In this document: piece by piece, positions 197 through 15,166 of the stretch
How the letters are laid out: every line of letters begins with the position of its first letter
How positions within the stretch are numbered: the stretch's first letter is position 1
NCBI GenBank assembly: GCA_945829225.1
Contig: CALZTY010000020.1
Span: 1-39,504, forward strand
Direction of reading: 5' to 3'
Length of the DNA stretch: 39,504 bases
Source of the DNA: an uncultured Bacteroidales bacterium
GTDB lineage: Bacteria > Bacteroidota > Bacteroidia > Bacteroidales > Muribaculaceae
Translations under genes and position numbers: made by a program
The notes under the pieces: generated by a model
Databases searched by the model: none
Seen by the model: the letters and a program-made list of their open reading frames with translations, nothing else
What the model was told of the DNA's origin: nothing

Positions 197-3100
197 ATGA
201 AAAGGACATCATTTCTTACTTTCTTGTTAGCGGTGATGATACAGTCGGTCTTTGCGGCTGACGTTACTGTTAAGTTCTCCGGGTTGCAAGACGGAGACAA
301 AGCGACCTTAACAATCGCATCGGACACTTATCTCGCCTCACTCCCGGTGACTTCCGATGGAACTTATGTATTTGAAAATGTTCCACAGGGCAAACACAGT
401 GTCAAGGCTGAGGCAACCGGATACAATGTCATCGAAGCCTTGACTGTAATTGTAAATCCGGACGGAAGTGTCGCCCCTTCCGAGCCGCTGAAAGTTCCCG
501 TCACAAAAATGTCTGAGGACCCTTCCAAATGGGTATTTGAATGGAAGGAGGATGGGAGCGTTTCGGGTTACACCACAACGGCGCACGTCAACAAACCGGC
601 GGAGATTGAATTTCTTGGCAAGATGATTGTTCCCGCCGATGTGCCTTCATTCGGCATACTTGAGAACAACTATCACATCGTCCTCGCCAATGACGAGAAG
701 ATCTGGACTCAGGAATATGCCTACCGTATGGTCGAAACCCTCAAAACTCTACCCATAGGTTACGATGGTCTGAAAAAGACAAAATTCACTCTCACAGACG
801 AGCACCTGACCGACGACATCACCGTAACGGATATGGGTGAAGGTTATGAAGTGCGTATCTCCGAAGATGTTTTCTATTACGCCAATCCGTTTTTGGTGAC
901 TCTTGACGGTGTCAGGGGACGTTTCTACTCCAAGCGTCTCCATCATGCCCTCACAAATTTCGTGACAGACTTCGGCAAAGACGAAATGCGAGTGGATGAG
1001 ATACTCAGAAACCGTTTCGGCTGTAGTGTCACAGGCGTCGACTATGAAGCGCTCACCCGCGGAATAACCGACGAAGATGCGAGCCGTTTCCGTCCGTTCA
1101 AGCCATCGGAGCTCGTGAGCATAATCAATATGTTCGAGGAACTTCCCGAAGGCTTTCACGTCACCCCTCACCTCAATTACCTGATCCGCCGGCTTGACGG
1201 ACATGACCATCCTCTTTACCCGGGCGCCGCCGCCGTGTCCTGGCCCGTGGAGAACGGCTATATAGAATTCATGGAGAAGGCCTTCGACGGAGGCAACAAC
1301 CTCAGCTTCGACACACTTCGCCTTATCCTCCACGAGAAGACCCATTTCCTCTGGGCTTTCGTATTCTCCGAAGAAATCAAGAACGACTGGATAAAGATCG
1401 GCGGCTGGTACGAGGACCCCAACGCGAAAGACGGATGGGCAACGACCAAGGACGTGGAATTTGTCAGCCAGTATGCACATGGACATAATCCTAACGAGGA
1501 CATGGCGGAATCCGTAGCTTTTTATCTCAAGGATCCCGAGAAACTCATGTCGAGATGTCTCGAGAAATACGAATTCATCCGCGACCGCATAATGCATGGC
1601 GTCCGTTATATCTCGACCGTGCCGGACCATCTTTCCTTCGAGGTGCTCAATCTGTGGCCCGACTACGATTATCCCGGCAAAATCAAGCGTGTGAACGTAA
1701 CGGTCGACGGCGAGGCAGAAGCTGACAAAACCGTAACGATAGAAATAGAGCTTAACCACATTGACGGTTATGAAGACGGAGCTTCACATGCCATCACAAG
1801 ATTGTCTTCTCCCGTTTTCTTCGATGACGGCGGCAATCCTCATTCCCAGATTCTGGACATTCATTTCGAACCGGTTGACGGCAATCCTTATATTCTCAGA
1901 GGAAGCAATATTATCCCGAAATATGGTAAGATGGGGCACTGGACGGTCGGCGACATAACAATTTCCGATTTACAGGGCAATCAAAGATATGGAGGGCGCA
2001 ACGACTGCGTGGTCGACGTGTTCTTAAACAATCCCCTTGAGGACATCATTCCTCCCAAATATGTTCCTGGAAGCCTGAATTACGAGCTCTCAGAGAAGGA
2101 AATGGAAGGACACCACTGCCAGAATCTCAAGGTTACCTTCAAGGTAACGGACAATGTGGGCATAGAACACTCCTACGGACGCCTCTATGCCGAGGCCGAC
2201 GGATACCCCGGCAAGACCAACGCTCTCGCCGAAATGTACGGGACTTATGACCCGGATACCCAAACCGCCGAGCTCAACTTCACAATATACGACTATTCCC
2301 CGACCGGATTTTATTACCTGCCGTTTGTCGAATACGCCGACTTCGCGAGAACTGACGGGGCTACCACATTCTCGGACTCGCCGCTCGACGAGCCTGTGAA
2401 AAAGATTTACATAAAGACACCTAACCCTGATTACACTCATCCTGAAGTCGATCTCAACCGTATCTCGGTATATGCAGAACCTACACATCCCGAAGCTCCT
2501 GACGGCGAGACAAAAGTCACCGTCAACTTTTATGCGAGAGATAATTTTTCAGGCTTAGGTGATGTACTATATCACTTCATCAGCCCGCAGGGAGATATGC
2601 CGGGGGGCTGGTTCTATCACCGCAATTTCTATACAACTTTCTTTGAAGGAGATCCCACGGTCTGGGAACATTATACAATCACACACATTCTCCCACAAGG
2701 TTCGGCTCCGGGTCGCTGGGGATTGGCACGGCTAACAGTTAACGACAAAGCTGCAAACGCATACACTTATGATTTCGTCGAGACTCTGATATTCGAACCC
2801 GACGATGATATGTCTAAATATATTCTCTTTGCAGACATGAATGATTCAAATATGCTATACCTTACTCTCACTTCAGAGAGCGGCAGCCATTTTGGATACA
2901 ACTACCGTGTCATTCATGAGGAATCAGGTCAGGAAATTTCAGGAACTTACGCAGGACATAAATCTGAAATCACCGCAATGTCAAATAATCCCGCCGACGT
3001 ATCTATTGACGTTTCAAGCCTCCCGGACGGAGAACTCATTGTCATTGCAAATGTACTTGACGAAAACGGGAAGATAGAGACTTCAAAGTCGACCCGAGTA

Positions 3101-3325
3101 AATAAGAAGGGTCAGTCTTCCGTTTCAGAAATTCGTACATATAACAGCAAGGTATTACTGAAGGGCAGGACGGTAATAGTTTTCAGTGACACCGAACGTA
3201 ATATTACAGTTACGACAATTGATGGACGCCAAAACATCCATCCGGTCGTAAACGGCAAGACCACCTTTGAGTTACCTGATGCAGGATTCTATATAATAGA
3301 TGGTCAAAAGTTTGTAGTTAAGTAA
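197..3325 (+). CDS. Large secreted zinc metallopeptidase (HExxH) with beta-sandwich regions
   Basis: The protein has 1042 residues. A signal peptide covers about residues 1-20 (hydrophobic core, cleavage after VFA), so it is exported. Residues 21-105 look like a beta-sandwich of the carboxypeptidase-regulatory type (a YVFENVPQGKHSV stretch). The catalytic zinc motif HEKTH is at 379-383, and NEDMAES at 433-439 supplies an acidic third ligand (E434 or E438), a gluzincin-like layout. After about residue 500 the chain is beta-rich, with repeated VTV-type strands suggesting Ig-like modules. The last 60 residues end in GFYIIDGQKFVVK, resembling a type IX sorting-type C-terminal domain, so surface delivery is possible. 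I do not recognise a named family; mucin or host-protein cleavage would be a guess. It is a single-gene unit. Confidence 0.75.
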   Translation: MKRTSFLTFLLAVMIQSVFAADVTVKFSGLQDGDKATLTIASDTYLASLPVTSDGTYVFENVPQGKHSVKAEATGYNVIEALTVIVNPDGSVAPSEPLKVPVTKMSEDPSKWVFEWKEDGSVSGYTTTAHVNKPAEIEFLGKMIVPADVPSFGILENNYHIVLANDEKIWTQEYAYRMVETLKTLPIGYDGLKKTKFTLTDEHLTDDITVTDMGEGYEVRISEDVFYYANPFLVTLDGVRGRFYSKRLHHALTNFVTDFGKDEMRVDEILRNRFGCSVTGVDYEALTRGITDEDASRFRPFKPSELVSIINMFEELPEGFHVTPHLNYLIRRLDGHDHPLYPGAAAVSWPVENGYIEFMEKAFDGGNNLSFDTLRLILHEKTHFLWAFVFSEEIKNDWIKIGGWYEDPNAKDGWATTKDVEFVSQYAHGHNPNEDMAESVAFYLKDPEKLMSRCLEKYEFIRDRIMHGVRYISTVPDHLSFEVLNLWPDYDYPGKIKRVNVTVDGEAEADKTVTIEIELNHIDGYEDGASHAITRLSSPVFFDDGGNPHSQILDIHFEPVDGNPYILRGSNIIPKYGKMGHWTVGDITISDLQGNQRYGGRNDCVVDVFLNNPLEDIIPPKYVPGSLNYELSEKEMEGHHCQNLKVTFKVTDNVGIEHSYGRLYAEADGYPGKTNALAEMYGTYDPDTQTAELNFTIYDYSPTGFYYLPFVEYADFARTDGATTFSDSPLDEPVKKIYIKTPNPDYTHPEVDLNRISVYAEPTHPEAPDGETKVTVNFYARDNFSGLGDVLYHFISPQGDMPGGWFYHRNFYTTFFEGDPTVWEHYTITHILPQGSAPGRWGLARLTVNDKAANAYTYDFVETLIFEPDDDMSKYILFADMNDSNMLYLTLTSESGSHFGYNYRVIHEESGQEISGTYAGHKSEITAMSNNPADVSIDVSSLPDGELIVIANVLDENGKIETSKSTRVNKKGQSSVSEIRTYNSKVLLKGRTVIVFSDTERNITVTTIDGRQNIHPVVNGKTTFELPDAGFYIIDGQKFVVK

Positions 3326-3803: not shown

Positions 3804-3848
3804 AAAAATAAAATTTCCAACTTATTGATATTCAATAAGTTGGAAATT
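3804..3848 (-). terminator. Intrinsic terminator of tRNA-Phe
   Basis: A perfect 17-bp inverted repeat (arms 3812-3828 and 3832-3848) has a 3-base spacer. Read on the minus strand it is followed by TTTTATTTTTAT. It lies 8 bases past the tRNA 3' end, so it should end the tRNA transcript. Confidence 0.8.
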
Positions 3849-3856
3849 CATTTCAG

Positions 3857-3929
3857 TGGTGCCACCAGGAATCGAACCGGGGACACAAGGATTTTCAGTC
3901 CTTTGCTCTACCAACTGAGCTATGGCACC
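3857..3929 (-). tRNA. tRNA-Phe (GAA)
   Basis: Read on the minus strand, the 73 bases fold as a full cloverleaf. The acceptor stem is GGTGCCA/TGGCACC, the D-arm contains AGCTCAGTTGGTAGAGC, and the anticodon stem is AAGGA/TCCTT with loop CTGAAAA (anticodon GAA). The T-arm contains GGTTCGATTCC and the discriminator is A. The CCA end is not encoded. The gene has its own promoter and terminator, although it also lies downstream of the eight-gene signalling operon on the same strand. Confidence 0.96.
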
Positions 3930-3946: not shown

Positions 3947-3978
3947 CAAAGGTAGGACAAAAAAATGAACTGTGCAAA
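3947..3978 (-). promoter_or_regulatory. Promoter of tRNA-Phe
   Basis: On the minus strand TTTG (3975-3978) and TACCTTTG (3947-3954) are separated by 20 bases, a canonical Bacteroidetes -33/-7 pair. The -7 element ends 17 bases before the first tRNA base. A 16-base palindrome GTTTTTTGCAAAAAAC lies just upstream at 3990-4005. Confidence 0.75.
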
Positions 3979-4008: not shown

Positions 4009-4668
4009 TTAGAAAATGCCTAAGAAGCGTTTTTTTGCTTTTTGTTTGACATTAATAACGTATTGGTGACCGGGTTCTTCGATGACGATGCTACTGCTAC
4101 GTTCGTTGTCAGCGGTGTTTTCGGCTACTTGGATGAGGACTTTGCCGTCGCGAGTGAAGATTACGTCGGCAATCCATTCGGGTTTGTCGGAGACTTGAGC
4201 GAGGGTGGTAGTGACGCAGAGACCGTCGACGAGTGTGGTGCCGGTATCGTCGTATTCAAATTCAATGGTGAAGCTTTGTGAAATGATTTCGGTAGGCTCT
4301 TCTGTGGGTTGCGGCCCTTGGTCGGCGGTGGTGGTGTCGTCTACCGATTCGGGATCGATAGCGTTTTCTTCCTCGGGAGCGGCGTAGAGGAGTTGGTCGA
4401 TGTGTTCCGGGTCAAAGGTGCCACCGAGTCGAGTGATGGTGTTTTGGCAGATTGTGATTTGCCGGAGGCAGCGGTCCTTGTCGGCTTCGTCGGAGAAGCA
4501 TCGGAAAGCCTCGGCGAAGTGGATAATAGCCTGGTTCTGCGCCTCGATAGTAGCGGTTTGACGCAGGGTGAAGCCTCGACGGTATGCGTCGTTGCAGTCT
4601 TGAGCCTTGAGGAGCAGAGGGAGGAGCAGGAGTAGAAGTGAAATAAATATTTTAACGTACTTTTCCAT
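4009..4668 (-). CDS. Secreted protein with BACON-like C-terminal domain
   Basis: This 219-residue protein is the last gene of the signalling operon, 14 bases after the long kinase gene. Residues 1-22 are a signal peptide ending KAQ. Residues 23-80 are helical and cysteine-containing (C25, with others around C57, C67 and C74), possibly TPR-like. An acidic Thr/Pro-rich linker follows. The C-terminal part from about residue 130 carries the BACON fold signature: KPEWI, a KVLIQVAEN strand, an ERSSSIVIE strand and a terminal VINVKQ. BACON domains are Bacteroidetes-associated extracellular beta-sandwiches. Its role is unknown; it could be a periplasmic partner or ligand of the membrane kinase. Confidence 0.7.
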   Translation of the reverse strand: MEKYVKIFISLLLLLLPLLLKAQDCNDAYRRGFTLRQTATIEAQNQAIIHFAEAFRCFSDEADKDRCLRQITICQNTITRLGGTFDPEHIDQLLYAAPEEENAIDPESVDDTTTADQGPQPTEEPTEIISQSFTIEFEYDDTGTTLVDGLCVTTTLAQVSDKPEWIADVIFTRDGKVLIQVAENTADNERSSSIVIEEPGHQYVINVKQKAKKRFLGIF

Positions 4669-4682
4669 TGTGAGATAAGAAT

Positions 4683-7157
4683 TTAGAGGTCATCGTATGG
4701 ATTGTAGGCGGGGGTTGAGGGTCGTCGGGGAGATTGAGTCGGAGTCACCGCCGGGGAGATTGAGCGCTGAGCGGGTCGGTATACGGGGGAGTAGTCGATA
4801 GGCGAAGCCGGAGCGCCAGCCTTGGGATGCCAGAAGCCTCTGCCATCGTTGAGGGGTGACCCATTGGGCGCATATCTTAGTTCGAGGTAACCGCGTGCAG
4901 TTTCCAATTTGGTTGGTTGACCGCGGTGGTTGTAAGATATGGTTATGGTCTCGGAGGCGCTACCGTATGGTGACAGCAAATTGTACCAATCAGGGTCGCC
5001 TTTGACGGTACGGAGTTGACAAGAGTTGTCGTCATATGTGTAAGTGGCTTCGGAGATCGTGATATCTGATTTAGAGATTTCTTTTTTCATAATGCGCCCA
5101 TTGTCATCGTGCTCGATGGTGACTGTTTGATATTCTCGGTCGCCTTTTTTACGGATAAATTTGTTGACGTTGAGGTAACGTTGGCGAGTTTCTTCGTCAA
5201 AGACGAGATTATCGCCATGGTAAGTGAGAACCGACCCTATATTATTGTAAGTGATGTCGATAGAGGATACTGTGCCCAAACCGTCAATTTGACGAGGAGT
5301 GTCGAATTCGATGTGAGTGGGGCGATTCAGGTTATCGCAGTCATATGAAATACGAGGCTTTGTATCCTTGTAAACATATTCGTGCTTGTCGAAGAGGGAG
5401 TCGAGGCGTTCGGTAGTTATATCACCATCGCTGTGGTAAGTGTAGTGGTAACCGTAGTTGCCCGATTTGAGACCGCTGATGGGATTGTCGTTTTCGTCGT
5501 AGTAACGTTCCTCGATGAGGTTTCCGACTTCGTCATATTCATATTCGGCATGATAGATATTTGCATTGCCCCACGAGGGGTTGTGGTCGGCGGTTTCAAA
5601 TTTGATGAAAGTGCGGTTGTAGTTTTCATCGTAATCGCAGGTAGTGAAAGCCATACCGAGGGTATTATTGGCAGGATCACCATTGCGGTCGATGTTGGCG
5701 ATGCAGGTGATTTGGTTGTCGTTGTTGTAGGAGAAACTAATGCCGCATGTGCCGTGGGTATCGGGCGTCATTTGGGAGTCGGAGTTGTAATAAACGACCT
5801 GAGAGAGTCGCTCTTCATCATCGAATGAGAGTTTCAGCTTGGTGATGCTGGCGATGCTCGTTATGCCCGAATAATAATCGAGTGAAATGAAGTTGTCGTC
5901 AGTACCGGTGAAGCACTTGCTCTTACTGCCTTCAGCCCATTTGATTTCGACAATAGAGTCGTTGATGTAGTCGAAGGTGTATAATATTTCGTCATCGGCA
6001 TTACGGGCGATCATGTAGTCGAGCTCGCCCTTGTCATTGTACTTGTATTCTTGGTCGGGGAATCGGATGCCCATAATGTCGTATGCGCCGTAACCGCGGA
6101 TATCGCCGTTGCGGTCGACGACCGATAGGCGAGTGACATGACCGCCGCGCGAGGTGATGCGGTAGGATATGTCGCGTTGTTGTTGCTCCTTGGCAGAGAG
6201 TCGACCGATGCCTTTGGGACCATCGATGGTGTCGTAGTAGTCGCGGTAGTAGTAAGTTTTCTCGCGGGAGTATCCCCATAAGATGAAACCGGCGATGATA
6301 GCGGCGGCGATGCACACATATAGAGAGATGTGAGCGACTTTCTTGGCGTTGGGAGATGTGCGCCAAGAGCCGGAGTCGAGGCGATGCTCGGTGACACGAC
6401 GGATGAAGTCGGCAGAGGGGCGCTTGTCGGGGTTAGGGTCGAGCATCGCATAGATGAGTTTGAGGAGCGAAGAAGACCATTTTTTATCCTCGATGGGAGG
6501 AATGGGTGCAGAGGGAGATTGTACCAAACCGCCGTGGTCGCCGTAGGGAGGGTATCCGGTGATCATCTCGTAAGCAGAAGCGCCGAGCGCCCAGATGTCG
6601 CCCTTAGCATTGGATACGCCGCGGAAGCGCTCGGGCGCCATGTAAGCACGAGTGCCACCGACAGCCTCGTTGGCGACTTCGCGAGAGCCGGCGATGCCGA
6701 AGTCAGTGACCAGGAAGTTGAGGTCGTCGTCGATGAGGATGTTGTCGGGCTTGATATCTTGGTGGATGACGTTGTGGAGGTGTAGGTAGTCGAGACCGGC
6801 GGCGACATCGTGAAGAATCTTGATAACATCCTCTTCCTCGCAGCGCCCGGTCATTGCGGTGATAGAGCCGTTCTCACAGAAGGGGAGCACGAGGTATGGT
6901 GTGCCGTCACATACCGAATAGTTGGTGGGCGTGAGGAGGTTCTGGTGGTTGATGTTGTAGACGGTAACGAATTCGTTGCGGAAGTCGCGTTGCCCGTATG
7001 AGTCGAGTTCGTCCTGGGATACGAAGATCTTGACGGCGACCTGAAGGTTACCTGAAAGCGTGTCGGCAGCGAGCCATACCTGAGCGGAGGCACCCTGACC
7101 GAGCAATCTTAGTAGTTTATAGCGGTTGTCGAATAAAGTATTTTCTTCGAGAAACAT
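4683..7157 (-). CDS. Transmembrane Ser/Thr protein kinase with extracytoplasmic YD-like repeats
   Basis: The protein has 824 residues. The N-terminal kinase domain (about 12-260) is complete: glycine loop GQGASAQV at 20-27, catalytic K43, helix-C E62, HQDIKPDN with D134, DFG at 152-154 and APE near 174-176. The base before the catalytic Asp is Gln, not Arg, so it is a non-RD kinase that may not need activation-loop phosphorylation. One membrane helix spans about 275-295. The remaining 500 or so residues repeat short Y-D/N-G strands (YKYNDKGELDYM, YEYDEVGNLIEERYYDENDN), like YD/RHS repeats, and should face the periplasm. The tail is Ser/Pro-rich. It follows the tail-anchored FHA gene by 21 bases. 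A sensor kinase reading an envelope cue is the likely role; the cue is unknown. Confidence 0.85.
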   Translation of the reverse strand: MFLEENTLFDNRYKLLRLLGQGASAQVWLAADTLSGNLQVAVKIFVSQDELDSYGQRDFRNEFVTVYNINHQNLLTPTNYSVCDGTPYLVLPFCENGSITAMTGRCEEEDVIKILHDVAAGLDYLHLHNVIHQDIKPDNILIDDDLNFLVTDFGIAGSREVANEAVGGTRAYMAPERFRGVSNAKGDIWALGASAYEMITGYPPYGDHGGLVQSPSAPIPPIEDKKWSSSLLKLIYAMLDPNPDKRPSADFIRRVTEHRLDSGSWRTSPNAKKVAHISLYVCIAAAIIAGFILWGYSREKTYYYRDYYDTIDGPKGIGRLSAKEQQQRDISYRITSRGGHVTRLSVVDRNGDIRGYGAYDIMGIRFPDQEYKYNDKGELDYMIARNADDEILYTFDYINDSIVEIKWAEGSKSKCFTGTDDNFISLDYYSGITSIASITKLKLSFDDEERLSQVVYYNSDSQMTPDTHGTCGISFSYNNDNQITCIANIDRNGDPANNTLGMAFTTCDYDENYNRTFIKFETADHNPSWGNANIYHAEYEYDEVGNLIEERYYDENDNPISGLKSGNYGYHYTYHSDGDITTERLDSLFDKHEYVYKDTKPRISYDCDNLNRPTHIEFDTPRQIDGLGTVSSIDITYNNIGSVLTYHGDNLVFDEETRQRYLNVNKFIRKKGDREYQTVTIEHDDNGRIMKKEISKSDITISEATYTYDDNSCQLRTVKGDPDWYNLLSPYGSASETITISYNHRGQPTKLETARGYLELRYAPNGSPLNDGRGFWHPKAGAPASPIDYSPVYRPAQRSISPAVTPTQSPRRPSTPAYNPYDDL

Positions 7158-7178
7158 CAGTGAGTGGGAAAGAAGTTA

Positions 7179-7736
7179 TTAGAAAGGCCAGTATTGGAGG
7201 ATGAGGTCGTCGAAGACATAAAGAGCGAGGAAAGCGACAAGTGCGGTGGCAATGGTGACTATGGCGAGGATGAGAGGGAGGTTGGACTTGCCACCGGATT
7301 TTTTGCGCTTGTTGTTCTTTGAGTCGGGGACTGGCTCAGCCACAGAGATGTAAGGAGAGGATACTTGGCGCTCGATTTTTTTGGAAGTATCGTTGTTGTG
7401 CTCTGAGGGGATGTAAGGCTGGATAGGTTGGTCGCCGCGGCGCTGAGTGCGCTTGGTGTCGGCGTGAGCGAGCTCGGGGATGAGATTGATGACCGCCTTC
7501 CAGTCAAGAGTATATGATGAGGCGAGCACGATGACATCGTCGGTGCTGACGTAGACATACTTGTTGTGGACCGGCGTGTCGTTGATAATCGAGCCGTTGC
7601 GCGAGAAATCGGTGAATCGCAGTCGTCCATCGTCAAGAAGAGTCAACTCGGCATGGGAGCCGCTGACAGTGTCAAAGGACTTGTCTACGACGATAGAGGA
7701 GTCGGGCGAGCGACCGATTGTAATAGTTTTAGCCAT
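7179..7736 (-). CDS. Tail-anchored FHA-domain protein
   Basis: The protein has 185 residues. Residues 1-80 form an FHA phosphothreonine-binding domain with the key residues present: G8-R9, S25/S27-H28 in SGSHAEL, and N47-G48. A charged linker ends in RKKSGGKS. A single membrane helix (about 152-174) and a short outside tail follow. The FHA domain should be cytoplasmic and could dock phosphorylated kinase at the membrane. It lies 6 bases after the PP2C gene, whose pre-membrane linker has the same SGGK motif. Confidence 0.85.
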   Translation of the reverse strand: MAKTITIGRSPDSSIVVDKSFDTVSGSHAELTLLDDGRLRFTDFSRNGSIINDTPVHNKYVYVSTDDVIVLASSYTLDWKAVINLIPELAHADTKRTQRRGDQPIQPYIPSEHNNDTSKKIERQVSSPYISVAEPVPDSKNNKRKKSGGKSNLPLILAIVTIATALVAFLALYVFDDLILQYWPF

Positions 7737-7742
7737 AAGGGG

Positions 7743-9122
7743 TTATGGTTTTACGGGTACTAAAGTGCGACGAGTAGGCTGCTCGGGTTCTTCTTCATCG
7801 GGAGTAGGCGTAGGCTCAGGCTCGGTATCTTGTTCGGGAGTTTCAACCTTGCCTTCTTCGGGATTCTGAGGTGTAGCAGCATTTACCGCTCCATTGGTGA
7901 AATTGCCGGTGGGAGTAGCCTGCGCTTGTTGTTGACGACGGGGAGCTGGCGCGGGGGTTGAGATGTCGTCGGCAGATACCTCGGGAGTCTCGGTGATATC
8001 ATCATCGTCTATGTCTTCAATGATGATTTCTTCTTCATTGACATTGTTGTCGGCAGGATTGTGGTTCTGCACCAAGAATACATAAGCGGCTGCAGCACAA
8101 GCCAAAGCGATGATGACGAGAATAACGAGCCAAAGTTTTGAGGATTTTTTGCCACCGGACTTAGTGGTTTTGTTGTCCTCGGGAGCGATGCTCTGAGTTT
8201 CGGCGCCGTCGGGCTTGGAAGGCGGGATGGTGCGAGCATTGAATTCGACATGCGGCTTGGCGACTTCCTTGGCAGGGATGCGGTCGGCTGTAGACTCGGC
8301 GCCCCCTTCATCTATAGCGGCGATAGCGACAGTGACGTTGTCGTTGCCACCGGCACTGAGTGCGGCATCGATGAGTTGGTCGGTGAGGGTGTCAACGTTG
8401 CCGTTGGATTCTTGAATGATTTGAGCCATTTGGTTGTCACGAATCATACCGTTGAGACCATCGGAGCAGAGGATGATTAAGTCGTTGTTGCACAGCGGTT
8501 GAGGAGTAACGAGGCAGTCGGGAACCGCCTTGGTCGTGGCATCGCAGAGGCAACGAGTGATGACGTTGTTGTTGGGGAAGTCAAAAGCCTCTTCATCAGT
8601 GATTTTGCCGGCGTCGACGAGGGTTTGGACATAAGAGTGGTCCTTGGTGAGGCGGACGAGCCCACACTGAGGATTATATACATAAGCGCGTGAGTCGCCG
8701 CACCAGCAGATGTGACATTCGCCGTTAATGAGCCAAGCGATGACAATGGTGGTGCCCATGCCACGAGTCTCGGTGGTCGAGGTGCGTTTGATGCGCGAGT
8801 CAGCCTCGACGACAACGTCCTTCATGAACTTCTCGATAGAGAAGCGATTTTTGAGCACCTCGGGAGTGATACGCTCGGGAGTGAAGAACTCGCGGACAGT
8901 TTGGATAGCGATTTCAGAAGCGACTTCGCCGGCATTCATTCCACCCATGCCGTCAGCGACGACGAGCAGAGCACCCTTGTCGCCGAGGGAGTAAGCCTTG
9001 TTGTTAACCCAAGACATTTGCGCCTGAGAGAGGTCGGCGGCGGCTTGGAAATTGTCTTCGTTATTAGTGCGAACACAGCCGGGGTCGGTTTTGGCTGCGA
9101 TGCGGAACTTGATTTCGGACAT
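7743..9122 (-). CDS. Membrane-anchored PP2C-family protein phosphatase
   Basis: The protein has 459 residues. Residues 1-272 form a complete PPM/PP2C Ser/Thr phosphatase domain that hydrolyses phosphoproteins using two metal ions: RTNNEDN with D23 near the start, ADGMGG (56-61), GMGTT, CGDSR, SDG with D221 and GGNDN with D261. A linker with KSGGKK leads to one membrane helix (330-351). The C-terminal tail of about 105 residues is acidic and Thr/Pro-rich and should lie outside the membrane. It is the presumed off-switch for the two kinases of the same operon, as PstP is for PknB in actinobacteria. Confidence 0.92.
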   Translation of the reverse strand: MSEIKFRIAAKTDPGCVRTNNEDNFQAAADLSQAQMSWVNNKAYSLGDKGALLVVADGMGGMNAGEVASEIAIQTVREFFTPERITPEVLKNRFSIEKFMKDVVVEADSRIKRTSTTETRGMGTTIVIAWLINGECHICWCGDSRAYVYNPQCGLVRLTKDHSYVQTLVDAGKITDEEAFDFPNNNVITRCLCDATTKAVPDCLVTPQPLCNNDLIILCSDGLNGMIRDNQMAQIIQESNGNVDTLTDQLIDAALSAGGNDNVTVAIAAIDEGGAESTADRIPAKEVAKPHVEFNARTIPPSKPDGAETQSIAPEDNKTTKSGGKKSSKLWLVILVIIALACAAAAYVFLVQNHNPADNNVNEEEIIIEDIDDDDITETPEVSADDISTPAPAPRRQQQAQATPTGNFTNGAVNAATPQNPEEGKVETPEQDTEPEPTPTPDEEEPEQPTRRTLVPVKP

Positions 9123-9150
9123 ATGAATGAAAAATTATAGAGGGACGGAA

Positions 9151-9939
9151 TTATAGTTGAGGGGTCTTGACGACGCACCATTGGCTGGGGCGCGAAGCAG
9201 GCACGATGAGCCCGGCGACTTGGAATTGAATGACACCCGGGGAGAGTGTGACGGGTACGAGGTAAACACCGCCAATGATTGTACCCTGAGTCTTGACAGG
9301 GTTGATAGTCGCATCAATAGCGGAGTCGGAGAAAGTGATGGGTGTAGGCGCCACTTTGATGAGGAGGTCGGCATTTTGCGTTATATTATTGTTGGCTGGG
9401 TGGTTTACGACCCATACAGCGAAGCCGTCGATTTTGCCTTGGAAATCGCCACAGAGGAGGGCTTTGTTGCTCAAATCGGTCTCGGTGGAGGCAGTGTAAA
9501 GTAATGAATTTTCGTTGTTGTATGCGGGAAGGACGACGGAGAATTCATCGAGGGGAGCCTTGGAGAATTGTGCGGGATTTGAGAGGAGCGAGAAATAGTA
9601 CCCACGAATGAGTGGGGTGTATTGTGGGTCGTTGCTTAAGTCGGCAAAGTATTTGTCGGAGTCCCAAGGTCTTCCGGCAGTGTGGGAGAGTAGGATGCCG
9701 CGGTCGGATATTACGGCGAGGGAGAAAGAGTGTCCGTATACAGAGTCGCCTTCGGCACAAAAACGATTGGAGAGGTCGGCGGTGGCGACATCGTAGGCAG
9801 AGTGTACGATGCGGAGCGAGGGCGCGATTGCAATGCGAATGAAATCATAGTTGGAGTCACCAAGGAGGGGGTTGGCGAATGCAGCCACCGGAGAGACGGC
9901 GAGGGCGGCGAAAATTATGTTACGAAAGAACTTGTTCAT
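9151..9939 (-). CDS. Secreted protein of unknown function
   Basis: The 262 residues begin with a signal peptide (about 1-22, cleavage near AFA). The rest has no membrane helix and looks like an alpha/beta then all-beta protein. I do not recognise a family. It sits inside the signalling operon, 20 bases after the FHA-protease gene and 28 bases before the phosphatase. A periplasmic partner or substrate of the membrane-tethered trypsin-like protease is a reasonable but untested idea. Confidence 0.6.
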   Translation of the reverse strand: MNKFFRNIIFAALAVSPVAAFANPLLGDSNYDFIRIAIAPSLRIVHSAYDVATADLSNRFCAEGDSVYGHSFSLAVISDRGILLSHTAGRPWDSDKYFADLSNDPQYTPLIRGYYFSLLSNPAQFSKAPLDEFSVVLPAYNNENSLLYTASTETDLSNKALLCGDFQGKIDGFAVWVVNHPANNNITQNADLLIKVAPTPITFSDSAIDATINPVKTQGTIIGGVYLVPVTLSPGVIQFQVAGLIVPASRPSQWCVVKTPQL

Positions 9940-9959
9940 AAATATAATAATGAGTAAAG

Positions 9960-11528
9960 TTATAAATCACAGAAATCGGCAAGAGCGGATATTGGGACGA
10001 CGCGCGAGCGCCACTGAGCGTCGTAGTTGGCATTGCCGTTGCGGAAACCGAGGCGTTCCTTGCCGGAGATGATGCCGACGACATAAAGTTTGCCGTTGCG
10101 TTGAGCGAAAACGGGACCGCCGGAGTTGCCGTGGTCGACGGGGTCTGAGGCAAGCATGATGATGCCGTTATAGAGCCCGTTTTGGCTGACTTTGGAGCTA
10201 ACATAGTTGGGTGATACGCGGTTTGTGGTCATGAGTTCCTCGGTGCCGACGTTGCGCGGGAAGCCGAGGATGTGGAGCTCGGTGCCGATGCTGAGATTGG
10301 AACTCCACTCGGCGTCGTAAGCGAGCCCACCACTGCGACCGAGGATGATGTAAGCCCAATCGTCGTCACCGACAGTAGACTCGGAGTATTTGATGGGGAA
10401 GGAGATAACTTCGCCCGACTCGTCGGTGATATCAACAGTCCCGACGGTGTACTCGGTGTTTCCGGTAACCCAAGGCCATTGTTGGGGAGTGTAAGAGTAC
10501 TCGATGTAGTCGCCATTGCCCGAGATGCCTTGGAGTTTGTACTCGACATCATTGCTTTGGTAGTTGTGAGCAGAATTGATGAGAACGGCTAAGTTGTCAT
10601 CGAGGTCTTGCTCATGAATGTAACTGAAGTCGATGCAGTGCTTGGCGGTGACGAAGCGACCATCGTCGAGGAGGAAGCCGGTGCCGGAGCAACTGAGGAC
10701 CTTAGTGCCTTGGTAGTAGAAGGTAACAACGATGTAATAAACGTCCTTTGAGAGAGCTGCAAAGGCGGAGGGAGCGGGCGTTCCGTTGTCGGCGGCACGG
10801 TGGGCAGTGCGGAGGGCACGCTGGGCGACATCGTTGATGTTGACGAGTGAGGCATTCATCGTGGCGAGTTGGCGAGCCAGGGAGTCGACCACTTCGGCAT
10901 TGTTTTGGTTGTCTTCGATAGCCTCAGCGAGCATTTGTTGCTGGTCCTTGACGTCATTGGCAACGTTGTTGACAAAGAGTGTGAGGTAAACGATGGCAGC
11001 GATGGCAAGGACGAGGCAAGCGCCGACAGCGATAAGCCCGTACTTGTAGGGTTTGAGGGCTTGCTGCGCGAAGAGGTTAAAGCGCTGGGTGAAGTTGATG
11101 GTGCCCATGCGCGAATTGTTGCCATCGGGGATGATGAAGCGAAGTTTGGGACCATTGACCGAAATTTGGATTTCATCGCCGTTCTGCAGGTACCACTCTG
11201 TGTCGATGCGTCGACCATTGAGGAGTGTAGAGTTGGTCTTGGATATTTGGACCAACTTCCAATTGTCGCCATCGCGGACGATGGCGGCGTGGCGGCGCGA
11301 GACGGTCTTGAAATCCTCGTCGAAGCGCACTTGGCAGCGAGGGTCGCGTCCGATCTCGATATTGTCGAGGATGATGCGTTGCGCCTCGCCCATTTGGTGA
11401 AATTTGGAGGTGACGCAGTGCTCGAGGATGTAGTAAGTCTTGTCGGACGGGTTGATGAGCGAGCTCATGCCATTGCCGATAGCACTGGAGAAACTTCCTG
11501 ATATTGATTTGGTTGCATTAGAAGCCAT
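9960..11528 (-). CDS. FHA - transmembrane - trypsin-like serine protease fusion
   Basis: The protein has 522 residues. An FHA domain (about 48-133) has G60-R61, SRRH at 77-80 and N99 of TNST, so phosphothreonine binding looks intact. One membrane helix lies at about 163-186. Residues 187-245 look like a helical stalk (Gln/Asn/Ala-rich coiled coil). Residues 260-520 are a chymotrypsin-fold protease with a full triad: H297 in TAKHC, D390 in DDDWAY and S469 in GNSGGPVF. The FHA domain should be cytoplasmic and the protease periplasmic, so the protein could carry a phosphorylation state across the membrane into proteolysis. The gene lies 20 bases after the kinase-FHA gene. Confidence 0.88.
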   Translation of the reverse strand: MASNATKSISGSFSSAIGNGMSSLINPSDKTYYILEHCVTSKFHQMGEAQRIILDNIEIGRDPRCQVRFDEDFKTVSRRHAAIVRDGDNWKLVQISKTNSTLLNGRRIDTEWYLQNGDEIQISVNGPKLRFIIPDGNNSRMGTINFTQRFNLFAQQALKPYKYGLIAVGACLVLAIAAIVYLTLFVNNVANDVKDQQQMLAEAIEDNQNNAEVVDSLARQLATMNASLVNINDVAQRALRTAHRAADNGTPAPSAFAALSKDVYYIVVTFYYQGTKVLSCSGTGFLLDDGRFVTAKHCIDFSYIHEQDLDDNLAVLINSAHNYQSNDVEYKLQGISGNGDYIEYSYTPQQWPWVTGNTEYTVGTVDITDESGEVISFPIKYSESTVGDDDWAYIILGRSGGLAYDAEWSSNLSIGTELHILGFPRNVGTEELMTTNRVSPNYVSSKVSQNGLYNGIIMLASDPVDHGNSGGPVFAQRNGKLYVVGIISGKERLGFRNGNANYDAQWRSRVVPISALADFCDL

Positions 11529-11548
11529 AGTGAAAAGAATAAGGTGGG

Positions 11549-12850
11549 TTAATAGCCTTCGGCGCGCAACTTGACGTCACCTACCGAGATGATATCTCCG
11601 GGCTTGATAGCCATGCCGTTAACGGATACTTCGGATGAGTTGACATATGTGCCATTGGTTGAGCGCTTCCACTGGTTGAGCGTATCGGATTTGATCCACT
11701 GACCGTCGCGGACGACCCACTCACCGATGACGTAGTCGAGTTCAAAAGTGCAGTGACGGCGCGAGAGATACACCGATTGGGTTTCTTTGATGTCGATATC
11801 GTTGTGAATAGAAACATCGCGGCGGCCGAGGGTGAGGATTGCGCAATCGCCCTTGAGCATGTCGTCGAGGCGGTAAACGCGACCATATTCCTCGCCTTGC
11901 ATGACGCGGAGGAGCAGACCGTTGACCACCTTAGTTGAGAAGTCTCTTTTGTCAATATTGTTGTCGACAGGGATGATACCGGGGACAAAGGTCAGGGCGT
12001 CCTTGGCGCTCTGAATGCGTTTGTGAAAGTTGGGGTTGAGGCAACCTTGAAGCAAGATAGCCCACTCGCGACCGTTGGAAATTTTCTTGAGGGGAGATGT
12101 GTCCCAATCGCCATTGCGTCCGCGCTCGATGTAGGGCATGAGGTCGCGCTCGCTATCGAGTTTGCCGAACGGTAGGCGACCATTGCTGAGGAGTTGATAC
12201 ATCATTACACCGAAGGAGAAGATGTCGGTGGTGGGTAGGACAGTGGCATCGCCCACGGGCTTGACTTGCTCGGGCGGCATGTATGCGTATGTGCCGAAAA
12301 TTTGCTTGGGACGCCCCATGATGTTGCGCTCGGTCATGCGCTTGTTGCGGTCGCCGGCGATGCCGAAGTCGGTGAGGGCAAAGGTGCCGTCGCTCTTGCG
12401 GAGTACATTTTCGGGCTTGAGGTCGCGATGGACCTTGCCGGCGGCGTGGAGAGCGATGAGACCGTTGAGGACATCGTGAGCAATCTTGGGTAGGTCAAGT
12501 TTGTCCCGGGAGGACAAGTGAATGAGGTCTCCGCCGGGGCAGAATTCCATAACGATGTAAGGGTTGCCACAGAGGAAACCATGGTCGACCGAGTGCACCA
12601 AATATGGCGACGAAATACGCCCGGTCTCGTATTCCATATCGAAGCGCTGGCTCAGTTGGTGTCGGATCTCGGGGTGTACTTCCCAGAGGCGGAGGAGTTT
12701 AAGCGCGTATTGTTCGCCCTCGGGAGTCTTCACCAAGTACACGACACCGAAGGAGCCTTCGCCCAGAGAGCGCTCGACGGTGTATCGGTCGGCGATGACG
12801 TCTCCGATTTTGATGCGGACTTTTTCGATGACAGGGATTGGTTGAGCCAT
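11549..12850 (-). CDS. Cytoplasmic Ser/Thr protein kinase with C-terminal FHA domain
   Basis: The protein has 433 residues and no membrane helix. The kinase domain (about 22-290) has glycine loop GEGSFGVV (30-37), K51, HRDLKPEN with D143, DFG at 161-163 and a PPE variant of APE at 192-194. It is a classical RD kinase, so activation-loop phosphorylation (TERN/FGTYAY region) is likely. The FHA domain (about 315-433) retains LGRR (341-344), SRRH (363-366) and STNGTYVN (397-404). Kinase and phosphothreonine reader on one chain suggests docking to its own or its partners' phosphosites. It lies 12 bases after the zinc-ribbon gene. Confidence 0.93.
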   Translation of the reverse strand: MAQPIPVIEKVRIKIGDVIADRYTVERSLGEGSFGVVYLVKTPEGEQYALKLLRLWEVHPEIRHQLSQRFDMEYETGRISSPYLVHSVDHGFLCGNPYIVMEFCPGGDLIHLSSRDKLDLPKIAHDVLNGLIALHAAGKVHRDLKPENVLRKSDGTFALTDFGIAGDRNKRMTERNIMGRPKQIFGTYAYMPPEQVKPVGDATVLPTTDIFSFGVMMYQLLSNGRLPFGKLDSERDLMPYIERGRNGDWDTSPLKKISNGREWAILLQGCLNPNFHKRIQSAKDALTFVPGIIPVDNNIDKRDFSTKVVNGLLLRVMQGEEYGRVYRLDDMLKGDCAILTLGRRDVSIHNDIDIKETQSVYLSRRHCTFELDYVIGEWVVRDGQWIKSDTLNQWKRSTNGTYVNSSEVSVNGMAIKPGDIISVGDVKLRAEGY

Positions 12851-12862
12851 AATGATATGGTG

Positions 12863-13783
12863 TTAATCTTCGTCGCAGTTGAATTCAATCATACGAGTAC
12901 CCATGAGGATGATGTCGCCGTTTTTGATTTCGAATTTGCGACCGGCTTGAACGAATGTGGTGTGGAAGGCGGATTTGTCTTCGATAAACCACTTGCCGTC
13001 CTCAAATGTGATGCGGGCTTGTTCTTTGGAAGTGATTGAATTGTTTCCGGGTTCGACGTTGCTGCGGTTGAGTGAAACCGATTCGCCCTCGAAGGGGAGC
13101 TTGGCTTTGGCGAGGTGTTCGCCTTCGCGGGGGCACAAAGTGAGGGTGAACTCGGGGATGATGCGTTGCACCAAGGGGTTGATAGTGCCACCGAAGTTGT
13201 TGGCGGGTTTGAAGAATTCCTCGGGGGAGTTAACGGTGGGCTGGCGCTTGATTGCCGGGGCTACAGGCTCGGGTTCGGGTTGAGGTTCGGGTTGAGGCTC
13301 GGGAGCAGGAGCAGAAGCGGGAGTAGGCTCAGGAGCAGGAGTAGGAGCAGGAGCGGGAGCGGGCTCGGGGGCGGGCTTACCGATAATCGAACGACAGTTG
13401 GGGCACTTGTCGGCGTCGGCTCTCAGAGGATATCCACACTTGGGGCAGAGGTGCGGCTCGTCGAAGTCGGTATGTTGCTCAGGCTCAGGCTCGGGCTCGG
13501 GAGCCGGTGCGCTATGTTGGGGCTTGGCAGCGGGAGTCTCCGGGAACACATCGCCCTCGTATACAGTGCCGTTGAGGTTGACGGCAGGGGCTTGAGGCTC
13601 GGCAGGTTGGGGTACGGTAGTCGCCTGCTGGCTCATCGGATTCTCAGAGGGGTCCAATAGACGGGTGTGGCTCTCGGCGTCGGCTTGAGGAGCCGGTACA
13701 TTCACGTCGCTCAGAGGCGAATTACATTTGCTACAGTGGGTGGCGCCGGGTTTGTTGGGCCAACCGCAATTTTTACAACGCAT
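12863..13783 (-). CDS. Zinc-ribbon protein with Pro/Glu/Ala linker and degenerate FHA domain
   Basis: This is the first gene of the eight-gene operon, with 306 residues. Two CxxC...CxxC zinc ribbons sit at C3/C6/C17/C20 and C113/C116/C127/C130. They are separated by a Pro/Ala-rich linker, and a second linker of alternating Pro-Glu/Ala (about 137-178) follows. Residues 215-303 have FHA-like strands and spacing, but the phosphopeptide-binding residues look lost: the usual GR is NR, SxxH reads SKEQ, and the Asn-Gly loop reads AFHTTFV. It may be a scaffold rather than a phosphothreonine reader. No catalytic motif is seen. Confidence 0.75.
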   Translation of the reverse strand: MRCKNCGWPNKPGATHCSKCNSPLSDVNVPAPQADAESHTRLLDPSENPMSQQATTVPQPAEPQAPAVNLNGTVYEGDVFPETPAAKPQHSAPAPEPEPEPEQHTDFDEPHLCPKCGYPLRADADKCPNCRSIIGKPAPEPAPAPAPTPAPEPTPASAPAPEPQPEPQPEPEPVAPAIKRQPTVNSPEEFFKPANNFGGTINPLVQRIIPEFTLTLCPREGEHLAKAKLPFEGESVSLNRSNVEPGNNSITSKEQARITFEDGKWFIEDKSAFHTTFVQAGRKFEIKNGDIILMGTRMIEFNCDED

Positions 13784-13817: not shown

Positions 13818-13825
13818 CAAATTTA
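13818..13825 (-). promoter_or_regulatory. Promoter of the eight-gene signalling operon
   Basis: On the minus strand TAAATTTG at 13818-13825 fits the -7 consensus and lies about 35 bases before the first start codon (13783). No good TTTG -33 element is seen 19-20 bases further up. It is the only candidate I see for the whole operon, because the internal gaps are 6-28 bases. Confidence 0.5.
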
Positions 13826-13945: not shown

Positions 13946-15166
13946 ATGAGGAACATAATGGCAATAGGCGCTGTAGCCGTGAGTATATTGGCGGCATCGG
14001 CGCAGACACCTGCAGATAGTGTTGCGTGTGATTCAGTTAAGGGTTTCGGCTTTGTCGATCAAGTGGTGGTGCCGTGTACTCCGGTCAAGGATCAGAATAA
14101 GTCGGGTACATGCTGGTGCTTCACGGGCATCTCGTTCTTGGAGCATGAAATACTGCGACAGACGGGCGACACGCTCGACCTATCGGAGATGTTTGTGGTG
14201 CGCCACTGCTATCAAGATAAAGCCGATCGCTATGTGCGCATGTATGGAGAGTCAAACTTTGCCCCCGGCGGGTCGGCTCTCGATGTGACATATGTGCTGA
14301 CGCGCTATGGATTGGTGCCCGAGGAGGCATATCCCGGCATCGAGTATGGCGAGGCAAAGCATGTACATGGCGAGATGGACGGCATATTGCGCCACTTGGT
14401 TGATGTGGTGGTGAGCAAGCCAGCCAAGAAGGTGTTCCCGGTGTGGCGCAAGGCATTCGACGGAGTGTTGGATGCATATCTCGGAGTGCCGCCGACCGAA
14501 TTTGTGTACAAAGGCAAGACCTACACGCCACAATCGTTTGCAGCCACGTTGGGTGTCAAAGCAGATGACTATGTGGCGGTGACATCATATACACATCATC
14601 CGTTCTATGAGCCATTTGTGCTCGAAATAGCCGATAACTGGCTGTGGGAGCGATACATAAATGTGCCGATGGAGCAGATGGAGGCGATTGTTGACAATGC
14701 CCTCGCCAACGGCTACTCGGTGGCGTGGGCGGCAGATGTGAGCGAACCCGGCTTCAAGTGGACCCAAGGCTATGCGCTGATGCCTGCCGAGGTGAACCAA
14801 TCGAGCCTCGAAGGCACCGAGTTGGCTCGTTGGGTGAAACTTAGCGACAAAGATCGCGATGCTGAACGCTACAACTTTGATGGTCCCGTTGATGAGATTG
14901 ATGTTACACAAGAATTGCGCCAGCAGATGTTTGACTCGCAGGAGACTACCGATGACCATGCAATGATGATAGTCGGCATTGCTGTCGACCGTCTTGGTAA
15001 TAAATATTATAAGGTGAAAAATTCGTGGGATACCAATAATGAGTATGGTGGTTACTTCTATGCTTCGCGTGCATATTTTCTGGCAAAGACACTCAATGTA
15101 TATGTTAATAAGCAAGCCGTGCCTCAAGATATAGCGCGCCAAATGGGTTTAATGCAGAAAAAATGA
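13946..15166 (+). CDS. pepC: Exported C1-family aminopeptidase (aminopeptidase C / bleomycin hydrolase type)
   Basis: The 406-residue papain-like cysteine peptidase has Q50, catalytic C56 in the GTCWCF motif, H338 in DDHAMM and N359 in KNSWDT. This is the order and spacing of the bleomycin hydrolase/PepC family (about 440-470 residues in cytosolic members). Residues 1-20 are a signal peptide, so this version is periplasmic or lipid-side, probably trimming peptides from the N-terminus. The C-terminus extends a little past the active-site Asn, as in PepC. It opens a three-gene operon, its stop overlapping the next start in ATGA. Confidence 0.88.
   Translation: MRNIMAIGAVAVSILAASAQTPADSVACDSVKGFGFVDQVVVPCTPVKDQNKSGTCWCFTGISFLEHEILRQTGDTLDLSEMFVVRHCYQDKADRYVRMYGESNFAPGGSALDVTYVLTRYGLVPEEAYPGIEYGEAKHVHGEMDGILRHLVDVVVSKPAKKVFPVWRKAFDGVLDAYLGVPPTEFVYKGKTYTPQSFAATLGVKADDYVAVTSYTHHPFYEPFVLEIADNWLWERYINVPMEQMEAIVDNALANGYSVAWAADVSEPGFKWTQGYALMPAEVNQSSLEGTELARWVKLSDKDRDAERYNFDGPVDEIDVTQELRQQMFDSQETTDDHAMMIVGIAVDRLGNKYYKVKNSWDTNNEYGGYFYASRAYFLAKTLNVYVNKQAVPQDIARQMGLMQKK

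Follow-up and report, generated by a model that had tools for sequence, protein, structure and literature searches.

An operon of eight open reading frames (ORFs) was analyzed in a stretch of 39,504 nt from an uncultured Bacteroidales bacterium (Muribaculaceae; assembly GCA_945829225.1, contig CALZTY010000020.1, positions 1–39,504), hereafter called the window. Comparison with related genomes indicated that these genes form one conserved unit and were not brought together by chance: genes 1, 2, 3 and 5, mostly accompanied by gene 4, constitute a core, around which the outer part of a sensor kinase and the partner proteins vary. Judging from the encoded domains, we tentatively propose that the unit is a phosphothreonine module with two kinases, which acts across the inner membrane and is equipped with a gated protease, a reading that we regard as plausible but somewhat short of probable.

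All eight ORFs lie on the minus strand, from position 13783 to position 4009, and are separated, in the order of transcription, by 12, 20, 20, 28, 6, 21 and 14 bases; the gene number and the spacing of 6–28 bases reported in a first-pass annotation of this DNA were both reproduced. The products, with lengths in amino acids (aa), are as follows:

12863–13783, minus strand: gene 1, 306 aa; two zinc ribbons, a Pro-rich linker and a degenerate FHA domain
11549–12850, minus strand: gene 2, 433 aa; soluble RD (HRD) Ser/Thr kinase with an intact C-terminal FHA domain
9960–11528, minus strand: gene 3, 522 aa; cytoplasmic FHA domain, QQAL(K/R)PYK-type motif, one helix and a periplasmic S1 protease (predicted topology)
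9151–9939, minus strand: gene 4, 262 aa; secreted, probable S1-fold pseudoprotease
7743–9122, minus strand: gene 5, 459 aa; PP2C phosphatase with one helix and a Pro-rich tail
7179–7736, minus strand: gene 6, 185 aa; intact FHA domain and one helix
4683–7157, minus strand: gene 7, 824 aa; non-RD (HQD) kinase with one helix and a YD/RHS-like periplasmic part (predicted topology)
4009–4668, minus strand: gene 8, 219 aa; signal-peptide-like start and a C-terminal BACON-like domain

Pfam matches and the FHA residues agreed with the earlier count of two kinases, one PP2C phosphatase, three intact FHA domains, one degenerate FHA domain and a trypsin-like protease. Two Pkinase domains (1.7e-41 and 1.8e-36) were detected, one each in genes 2 and 7, and FHA domains in genes 2, 3 and 6 (1.8e-10, 5.9e-16 and 2.9e-11), each of which retains the GR, SxxH and NG residues. 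The FHA domain of gene 1 was marginal (4.2e-4; 21.1 bits versus a cut-off of 20.7); it retains the Arg, but the SxxH His and the NG Asn are gone. Gene 3 matched Trypsin_2 (2e-8) and gene 5 matched PP2C_2 (1.6e-14), the latter also scoring 203.9 bits against NF033484, below its cut-off of 230, and the BACON-like domain of gene 8 (1.3e-4) fell under the Pfam cut-off.

Hydropathy predicted a single helix in four products, at residues 168–186 of gene 3, 333–351 of gene 5, 156–174 of gene 6 and 274–292 of gene 7. The first-pass annotation had placed the signaling domains of these four proteins on the cytoplasmic side of the membrane; an excess of Lys and Arg on the N-terminal side of the helix pointed clearly to this orientation for genes 5 and 6 (5 versus 0 in both) and weakly for genes 3 (2 versus 1) and 7 (4 versus 3). 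The predicted topology is conserved: the helix occupies the same position in all 20 copies of gene 3 and all 20 copies of gene 5 collected from the loci described below (genomes, loci and contigs are designated by G, L and C numbers), with gene 3 of G188 and gene 5 of G424 giving two overlapping hydropathy windows and gene 3 of G083 a second one near its end. Signal-peptide-like N-termini were predicted for genes 4 and 8 on the basis of hydropathy, in line with the two signal-peptide proteins of the first-pass annotation.

Conservation of the gene set among relatives

Searches for gene 3 covered 99 relatives (9 with a match), 393 genomes of the order (12 with a match), genome contigs (3 loci) and, using a 16-row profile, 395 genomes of the phylum (3 with a match, including the window's own). 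These searches yielded 20 distinct gene-3 loci, in one of which (G393) the copy consists of the half with the FHA domain and the transmembrane (TM) helix. Genes 1, 2 and 5 were present in the same locus as gene 3 in 20 out of 20 cases, a count that includes L057, with a fragment of gene 1 at the contig edge, and L059, with a gene 2 divided between two ORFs. The first-pass annotation had named a lack of co-occurrence in related genomes as the result that would speak against it; given the 20/20 loci, that objection does not hold. In L059, which belongs to G074, the split gene 2 (L059:17346–18631) comprises a kinase N-lobe ORF and an ORF with the C-lobe and the FHA domain, reflecting a frame break or an assembly error.

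Gene 4 was found in 16 of the 20 loci, being absent from those of G304, G711, G670 and G393. A gene-7-type kinase was likewise present in 16/20 (the L060 copy is a 125-aa fragment at a contig edge); none was seen in L057, which ends early, L058 or L072, and L069 carries a kinase of another group on the opposite strand. Gene 6 occurs as a free gene in four of the loci. Because the orders 1-2-3-4-5, 3-4-5-1-2, 5-1-2-3-4 and 3-5-1-2 were all observed, the neighborhood is conserved and the order is not. The earlier view of the eight genes as a unit is accordingly retained for genes 1, 2, 3, 5 and mostly 4, and not for the remaining genes, which vary.

The co-occurrence was also evident at the level of whole genomes. 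A gene 4 profile matched 10 of the 393 genomes of the order, all within the 12 gene-3 carriers, and a gene 1 profile matched 14, namely the same 12 carriers together with G330 and G315. The weight of this result rests on the 381 non-carriers, none of which has gene 4 and two of which have gene 1, because the profiles were built largely from carriers. Hypergeometric probabilities, which ignore relatedness, were 3e-18 (gene 4) and 4e-21. At an E-value of 1e-60, the gene 2 profile matched 7 of 49 genomes of the genus, which are the six carriers and G015.

Protease, putative secreted partner and two kinase families

We aligned 16 of the 20 gene 3 copies (those of G197, G711, G670 and G393 being left out) and found the protease triad H297/D390/S469 and the FHA residues G60, R61, S77, H80, N99 and N104 to be invariant in all 16. 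Q156, A157, P160 and Y161 were equally invariant; they lie within the QQAL(K/R)PYK-type stretch directly before the helix, which is a candidate for relaying a signal across the membrane. A search of solved structures with the protease domain returned six weak matches to trypsin-like chains (0.008–0.02). Gene 3 resembles the MarP family in being a predicted membrane-tethered periplasmic trypsin-like protease, but differs in carrying an FHA domain and one helix at its N-terminus, and the whole-protein match to the MarP model NF033740 failed (17.7 bits versus a cut-off of 250). The G393 genome also encodes a 581-aa protein (L079:5584–7329) with a gene-3-like FHA domain at its C-terminus.

Gene 4 had no match in Pfam or NCBIfam and none in PADLOC at 1e-5, and its profile had none in the PDB at an E-value of 10. 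A first profile comparison with the whole of gene 3 aligned its conserved region to the His motif of the protease (probability 1%, E 0.055). When the comparison was limited to the protease domain, a local score of 22.1 was obtained, compared with 12.9 ± 2.3 for 60 shuffles (maximum 19.8; probability 2%), and the global mode gave no signal (4.2 versus 3.7). When a deeper protease profile was used, the score rose to 29.3, compared with 13.0 ± 2.0 for 200 shuffles (maximum 19.5), and the match extended over 201 columns end to end (E 0.0019, probability 14%); control profiles of PP2C, kinase and BACON domains scored 10–14 against gene 4. As read by eye, and provided that the alignment is right, gene 4 has no His or Ser at the motif-aligned columns. 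Gene 4 is tentatively described as a probable secreted S1-fold pseudoprotease partner of gene 3. In G304 and G387, proteins without an assignment that adjoin the core were tested as a hidden gene 4, and no significant match was obtained. In G276, genes 3 and 4 are separated by a secreted S1 protease with a GNSGGP motif and no FHA domain (L071:8203–9141), the first 29 residues of which match those of gene 4 at 66% identity.

The kinases of the operon belong to two families. In a tree of 74 kinases (midpoint rooted for drawing), the gene-2 clade comprised 23 rows with support of 100/99, corresponding to the 20 loci, G015 and the copies in the type VI secretion system (T6SS) loci of G315 and G330, and the gene-7 clade comprised 25 rows with support of 100/100. 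All 21 gene-2 kinases that were read, which excludes the two T6SS copies, carry HRD, and 21 of the 22 read among the 25 gene-7-clade kinases carry HQD, HHD or HSD, the exception being G074 and the copies of L081–L083 being left out; by sequence, one family is RD and the other almost wholly non-RD. Neither kinase of the operon matched a PASTA domain (NF033483 gave 132 and 119 bits versus a cut-off of 450). The names MADS6, PD-T4-6 and PknB were considered for these kinases and rejected, as the NCBIfam matches were far under their cut-offs and the PADLOC matches were confined to the kinase domain.

The predicted periplasmic part of gene 7 had earlier been labeled YD-like. This label holds by homology: the window's own copy had no match to RHS_repeat (PF05593), whereas the G034 orthologue exceeded the cut-off (6.2e-13, 49 bits) and that of G014 approached it (20.8 bits versus 22). 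No match to the ectodomain was found among solved structures. By alignment, ectodomains like that of the window occur in G034, G014, G047, G015 and G197, and other sensor kinases have TPR (G074), Sel1 (G188) or CarboxypepD_reg (G670) in this position. Secreted BACON proteins were found in several loci, together with an outer-membrane barrel in L067, in a relative of it with 86% identity in L012, and in L078. The window's genome contains a second set on contig C6 (L065:6943–11582), with a PP2C, a gene-7-type kinase and a BACON protein and no protease. In G015, two tandem proteins (L061:4619–8548 and 8593–12192) with the arrangement FHA, kinase, TM helix and YD-like part correspond to genes 6 and 7 fused, the gene-6-like FHA domain forming the N-terminus of both gene-7-type kinases.

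Proposed mechanism and its relation to type VI secretion

For the complete transmembrane circuit put forward in the first-pass annotation, we infer the direction of phosphorylation, the FHA binding, the gating and substrate of the protease and the fold of gene 4 along the following lines. Kinase 7 would sense the state of the envelope through its periplasmic part, which is YD-like in the window and has TPR, Sel1 or CarboxypepD_reg domains in some relatives, possibly assisted by secreted or outer-membrane BACON proteins. Kinases 7 and 2 would then phosphorylate threonines on one another and on their FHA partners, and the FHA domains of genes 2, 3 and 6 would gather on phosphothreonine at the inner face of the membrane. 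This gathering could crowd gene 3 and thereby switch on its periplasmic S1 domain, for which the gene 4 pseudoprotease might serve as a cofactor, an inhibitor or a substrate guide; the PP2C encoded by gene 5 would reset the module. The presence of the core in all 20 loci despite reshuffling, the restriction of gene 4 to gene-3 carriers and the FHA–kinase fusions of G015 are consistent with this scheme, as are the invariant protease and FHA residues of gene 3, the conserved helices, the profile score of gene 4 against the protease and the RD and non-RD kinase families.

Several observations weigh against it. In G393, gene 3 does not extend beyond the helix and there is no gene 4, with genes 1, 2 and 5 and the kinases retained. 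The G015 locus likewise has genes 1, 2 and 5 and two kinases but neither gene 3 nor gene 4; gene 3 was not found elsewhere in this genome either, which is a 78% complete draft in which the contig ends in gene 1. Since G393 and apparently G015 lack both the protease and gene 4, proteolysis may not be the only output; the intact triad speaks for the periplasmic proteolysis that the first-pass annotation named as a possible output. In the G304, G711 and G670 loci, gene 4 is absent beside a full-length protease and is therefore not strictly needed, and its identity as a pseudoprotease depends on profile comparisons with the probabilities given above. The gene 2 FHA domain of G188, G711 and G670 has Trp in place of Arg, which makes its binding to phosphothreonine doubtful (gene 1 retains the His and NG in these three genomes). 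Finally, G050 and G051 have a diverged version of the module, with a protein of the form FHA-FHA-TM-protease, whose sensor kinases carry HRD and fall outside the gene-7 clade.

The loci without a protease also bear on an alternative in which the protease is an off-switch: docking on phosphothreonine would bring it to the sensor kinase and the PP2C, whose periplasmic parts it would clip, ending the signal. Retention of the kinases in these loci would fit such a role, as would the predicted location of the sensor ectodomain and the PP2C tail in the same compartment. However, the ectodomains are too variable among loci for one conserved cleavage site to be expected, and we consider this explanation decidedly unlikely.

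We compared the proposed phosphothreonine module with the PpkA/PppA/Fha pathway of T6SSs, which combines a kinase with a TM helix and a periplasmic part, a phosphatase and an FHA protein, and receives input from the envelope (PMC12607579, PMC10433429). Gene 7 is predicted to be a transmembrane Hanks kinase with a periplasmic C-terminus, and the PP2C of gene 5 is clustered with FHA proteins (genes 1, 2, 3 and 6). The operon of the window departs from that pathway in having no T6SS structural genes among its eight products and in three additions, namely a soluble second kinase, a protease linked to an FHA domain by a TM helix, and a probable pseudoprotease. The module would work most like PpkA/PppA/Fha, mostly without a T6SS and with a protease arm, which we believe to be its distinctive output.

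The first-pass annotation had stated that secretion genes were lacking. This was borne out for the operon, in which Pfam identified no secretion or T6SS genes among the eight products, and for TssC (PF17541), the only T6SS gene sought genome-wide, which was not found in the window's genome; it does not extend to relatives, in some of which the core lies beside a T6SS cluster or parts of it lie inside one. TssC was searched in 24 genomes: it was present in G304, G387 and G315, G330 has a fragment of it where a contig ends, and it was not found in the other 20. In G304, a cluster with TssC, Hcp, VgrG and TssE over Pfam cut-offs, and TssB-, TssG-, TssK- and ClpV-like proteins under them, adjoins the core tail to tail; G387 has a gene-by-gene homologous cluster in the same arrangement. 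The T6SS of G315 (L147, L148), which includes TssC (1.9e-130), a ClpB/ClpV-like ATPase and two Hcp proteins, contains gene-1 and gene-2 homologues; additional kinases, a helix-bearing PP2C and proteins of the forms FHA-TM and FHA-FHA-TM-trypsin are encoded in the same stretch, but no gene 4. The G330 T6SS locus (L146) also has gene-1 and gene-2 homologues, with VgrG domains, DUF4280, an M23 peptidase, a protein resembling TssK and one with a weak resemblance to TssF, and most matching genes of G315 and G330 are 66–93% identical. Further kinases and WG-repeat proteins were noted in these T6SS loci of G315 and G330.

These arrangements make the T6SS comparison an evolutionary link and not a mere likeness. 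As the G304/G387 and G315/G330 pairs fall in different supported groups of the gene-2 tree, the link has originated or been retained on at least two occasions. TssC was present in 4 of 14 gene-1 carriers, compared with 2 of the 95 remaining genomes that a sample of 99 from the order contained (Fisher's exact test, P = 0.002). A MotA/TolQ/ExbB-like protein and a one-helix coiled-coil protein were moreover found near gene 3 in four genomes, G084, G074, G711 and G670 (pairs at L058:8793–10420, L059:15651–17332, L076:10564–12134 and L077:10178–11811), the assignment being by Pfam in G084 and by 37–52% identity in the other three. All of this would accord with an alternative in which a T6SS-type threonine-phosphorylation pathway has been reused without the T6SS, its FHA proteins scaffolding another envelope complex whose parts the protease only trims or matures. 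However, TssC was not found in 17 of the 19 genomes with gene 3 that were searched, among them the window's (the genome of L012 lay outside the search), its excess among gene-3 carriers alone was weak (2/12 versus 2/95, P = 0.06), and the window's operon holds no machine genes; we regard this alternative as rather unlikely. Because TssC occurred in two of the 99 sampled genomes, neither of them a gene-3 or gene-1 match, and was not found in most carriers, most T6SSs of this kind need not be accompanied by the module, which itself mostly occurs without a T6SS. In the searched part of a paper on T6SSs of gut Bacteroidales (PMC4714493), the terms kinase, FHA and phosphatase did not appear.

Other known systems share parts of this composition. 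The actinobacterial PknB/PstP/FHA system has, like the operon, a TM kinase, a TM PP2C and FHA partners; the operon differs in lacking PASTA domains and in its added protease and secreted genes. Sets combining a zinc-ribbon kinase, PP2C and vWA are presumably those named TerY-P. The operon resembles such sets in uniting a zinc ribbon, a kinase and a PP2C (PMC7159879), but its zinc ribbons reside on a separate FHA protein, and no vWA domain was matched by Pfam among the eight products, in line with the first-pass annotation. We found no published description of the operon in the open literature, which does not prove that there is none.

A broader formulation joins inside-out, phosphothreonine-gated proteolysis, in which a cytoplasmic FHA domain would read kinase activity and turn on a periplasmic serine protease through one helix, and a dedicated secreted pseudoprotease cofactor in an envelope-signaling cassette that could be portable among T6SSs, the MotA/ExbB-like pair and BACON or outer-membrane proteins in different Bacteroidota; we hold it as possible, if doubtful. 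Ser/Thr kinases are common in bacteria, often without a known output. A phosphothreonine signal terminating in a protease across the membrane would, if true, be an unusual output, and the module would offer a kinase/phosphatase/FHA pathway to some Bacteroidales T6SSs. Its parts are defined and can be tested, as the active sites, the FHA arginines and each kinase are separately removable.

Distribution and flanks of the locus

The spread of gene 3 is patchy, with 6 of 49 genus genomes and 12 of 393 order genomes carrying it. Gene 2 of the window is 75% and 71% identical to those of G034 and G014, and 51–54% identical to those of G047, G003, G016 and G015; the genes of G424 and G393, which belong to other families, are 54% identical to it. 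Because these genus members are no closer than other families, transfer between lineages is suggested; a papain-like gene upstream of the operon is 55–71% identical within the genus. A mobile origin was considered and set aside, as neither a pattern scan of viral contigs nor searches of 50,697 phage records and 72,556 plasmid records detected a relative of gene 3.

The patchy spread, the gene 2 identities that suggest transfer and the matches of the kinases to PADLOC models could also be explained if the operon served in defence or conflict, the cell being arrested, as with KKP, once its kinase or protease activity is no longer held in check. KKP resembles the operon in having two kinases, one with an FHA domain, and a PP2C; the operon differs in its gene order, membrane-bound parts and protease, and no phage link was found for it (PMC11341870). 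The cold-shock domain of the KKP PfkA-type kinase was not matched by Pfam in either operon kinase, the PADLOC matches lie in the kinase domains, no gene 3 relative was found in the viral, phage and plasmid records, and the parts of the operon point to the envelope. A role in defence therefore seems highly improbable.

The transcription signals and immediate flanks of the operon are as follows:

13818–13825, minus strand: TAnnTTTG promoter-like motif directly 5΄ of gene 1
3947–3954: TACCTTTG motif (TAnnTTTG type) directly 5΄ of tRNA-Phe
3856–3929, minus strand: tRNA-Phe(gaa), downstream of the operon on the same strand
3811–3849, minus strand: terminator-like hairpin of 18 pairs, 3΄ of tRNA-Phe
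13946–15166, plus strand: gene for a papain-like C1 peptidase, oriented divergently to the operon

We take TAnnTTTG to be the Bacteroides –7 box. On the minus strand, the motif has no copy within the operon, and the next one after that upstream of gene 1 is that of tRNA-Phe. Sites of the sigma-70 type were uninformative (8 observed versus 7.6 in shuffles). Terminator-like sites numbered 16 versus 9.5 expected, and those on the minus strand within the operon have only 5–6 pairs.

The papain-like gene is present in 45 of 49 genus genomes and adjoins the operon in three of the six genus carriers. At this gene, 11 operon-free genomes (two of them ended by a contig edge) showed neither the window's other flank nor any operon gene beside it, and a tRNA scan of the 20 relative loci gave a single tRNA (tRNA-Pro, L055) and no tRNA-Phe. 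A genomic island at tRNA-Phe was therefore not adopted: the papain-like flank is a gene of the genus, and no clean empty site was seen. Elsewhere in the window, positions 197–3325 (plus strand) encode a 1042-aa secreted-looking protein with weak matches to metallopeptidases of the Peptidase_Mx type, and the ORF at 17187–18287 (plus strand) presumably resembles a DUF1016/YhcG nuclease.

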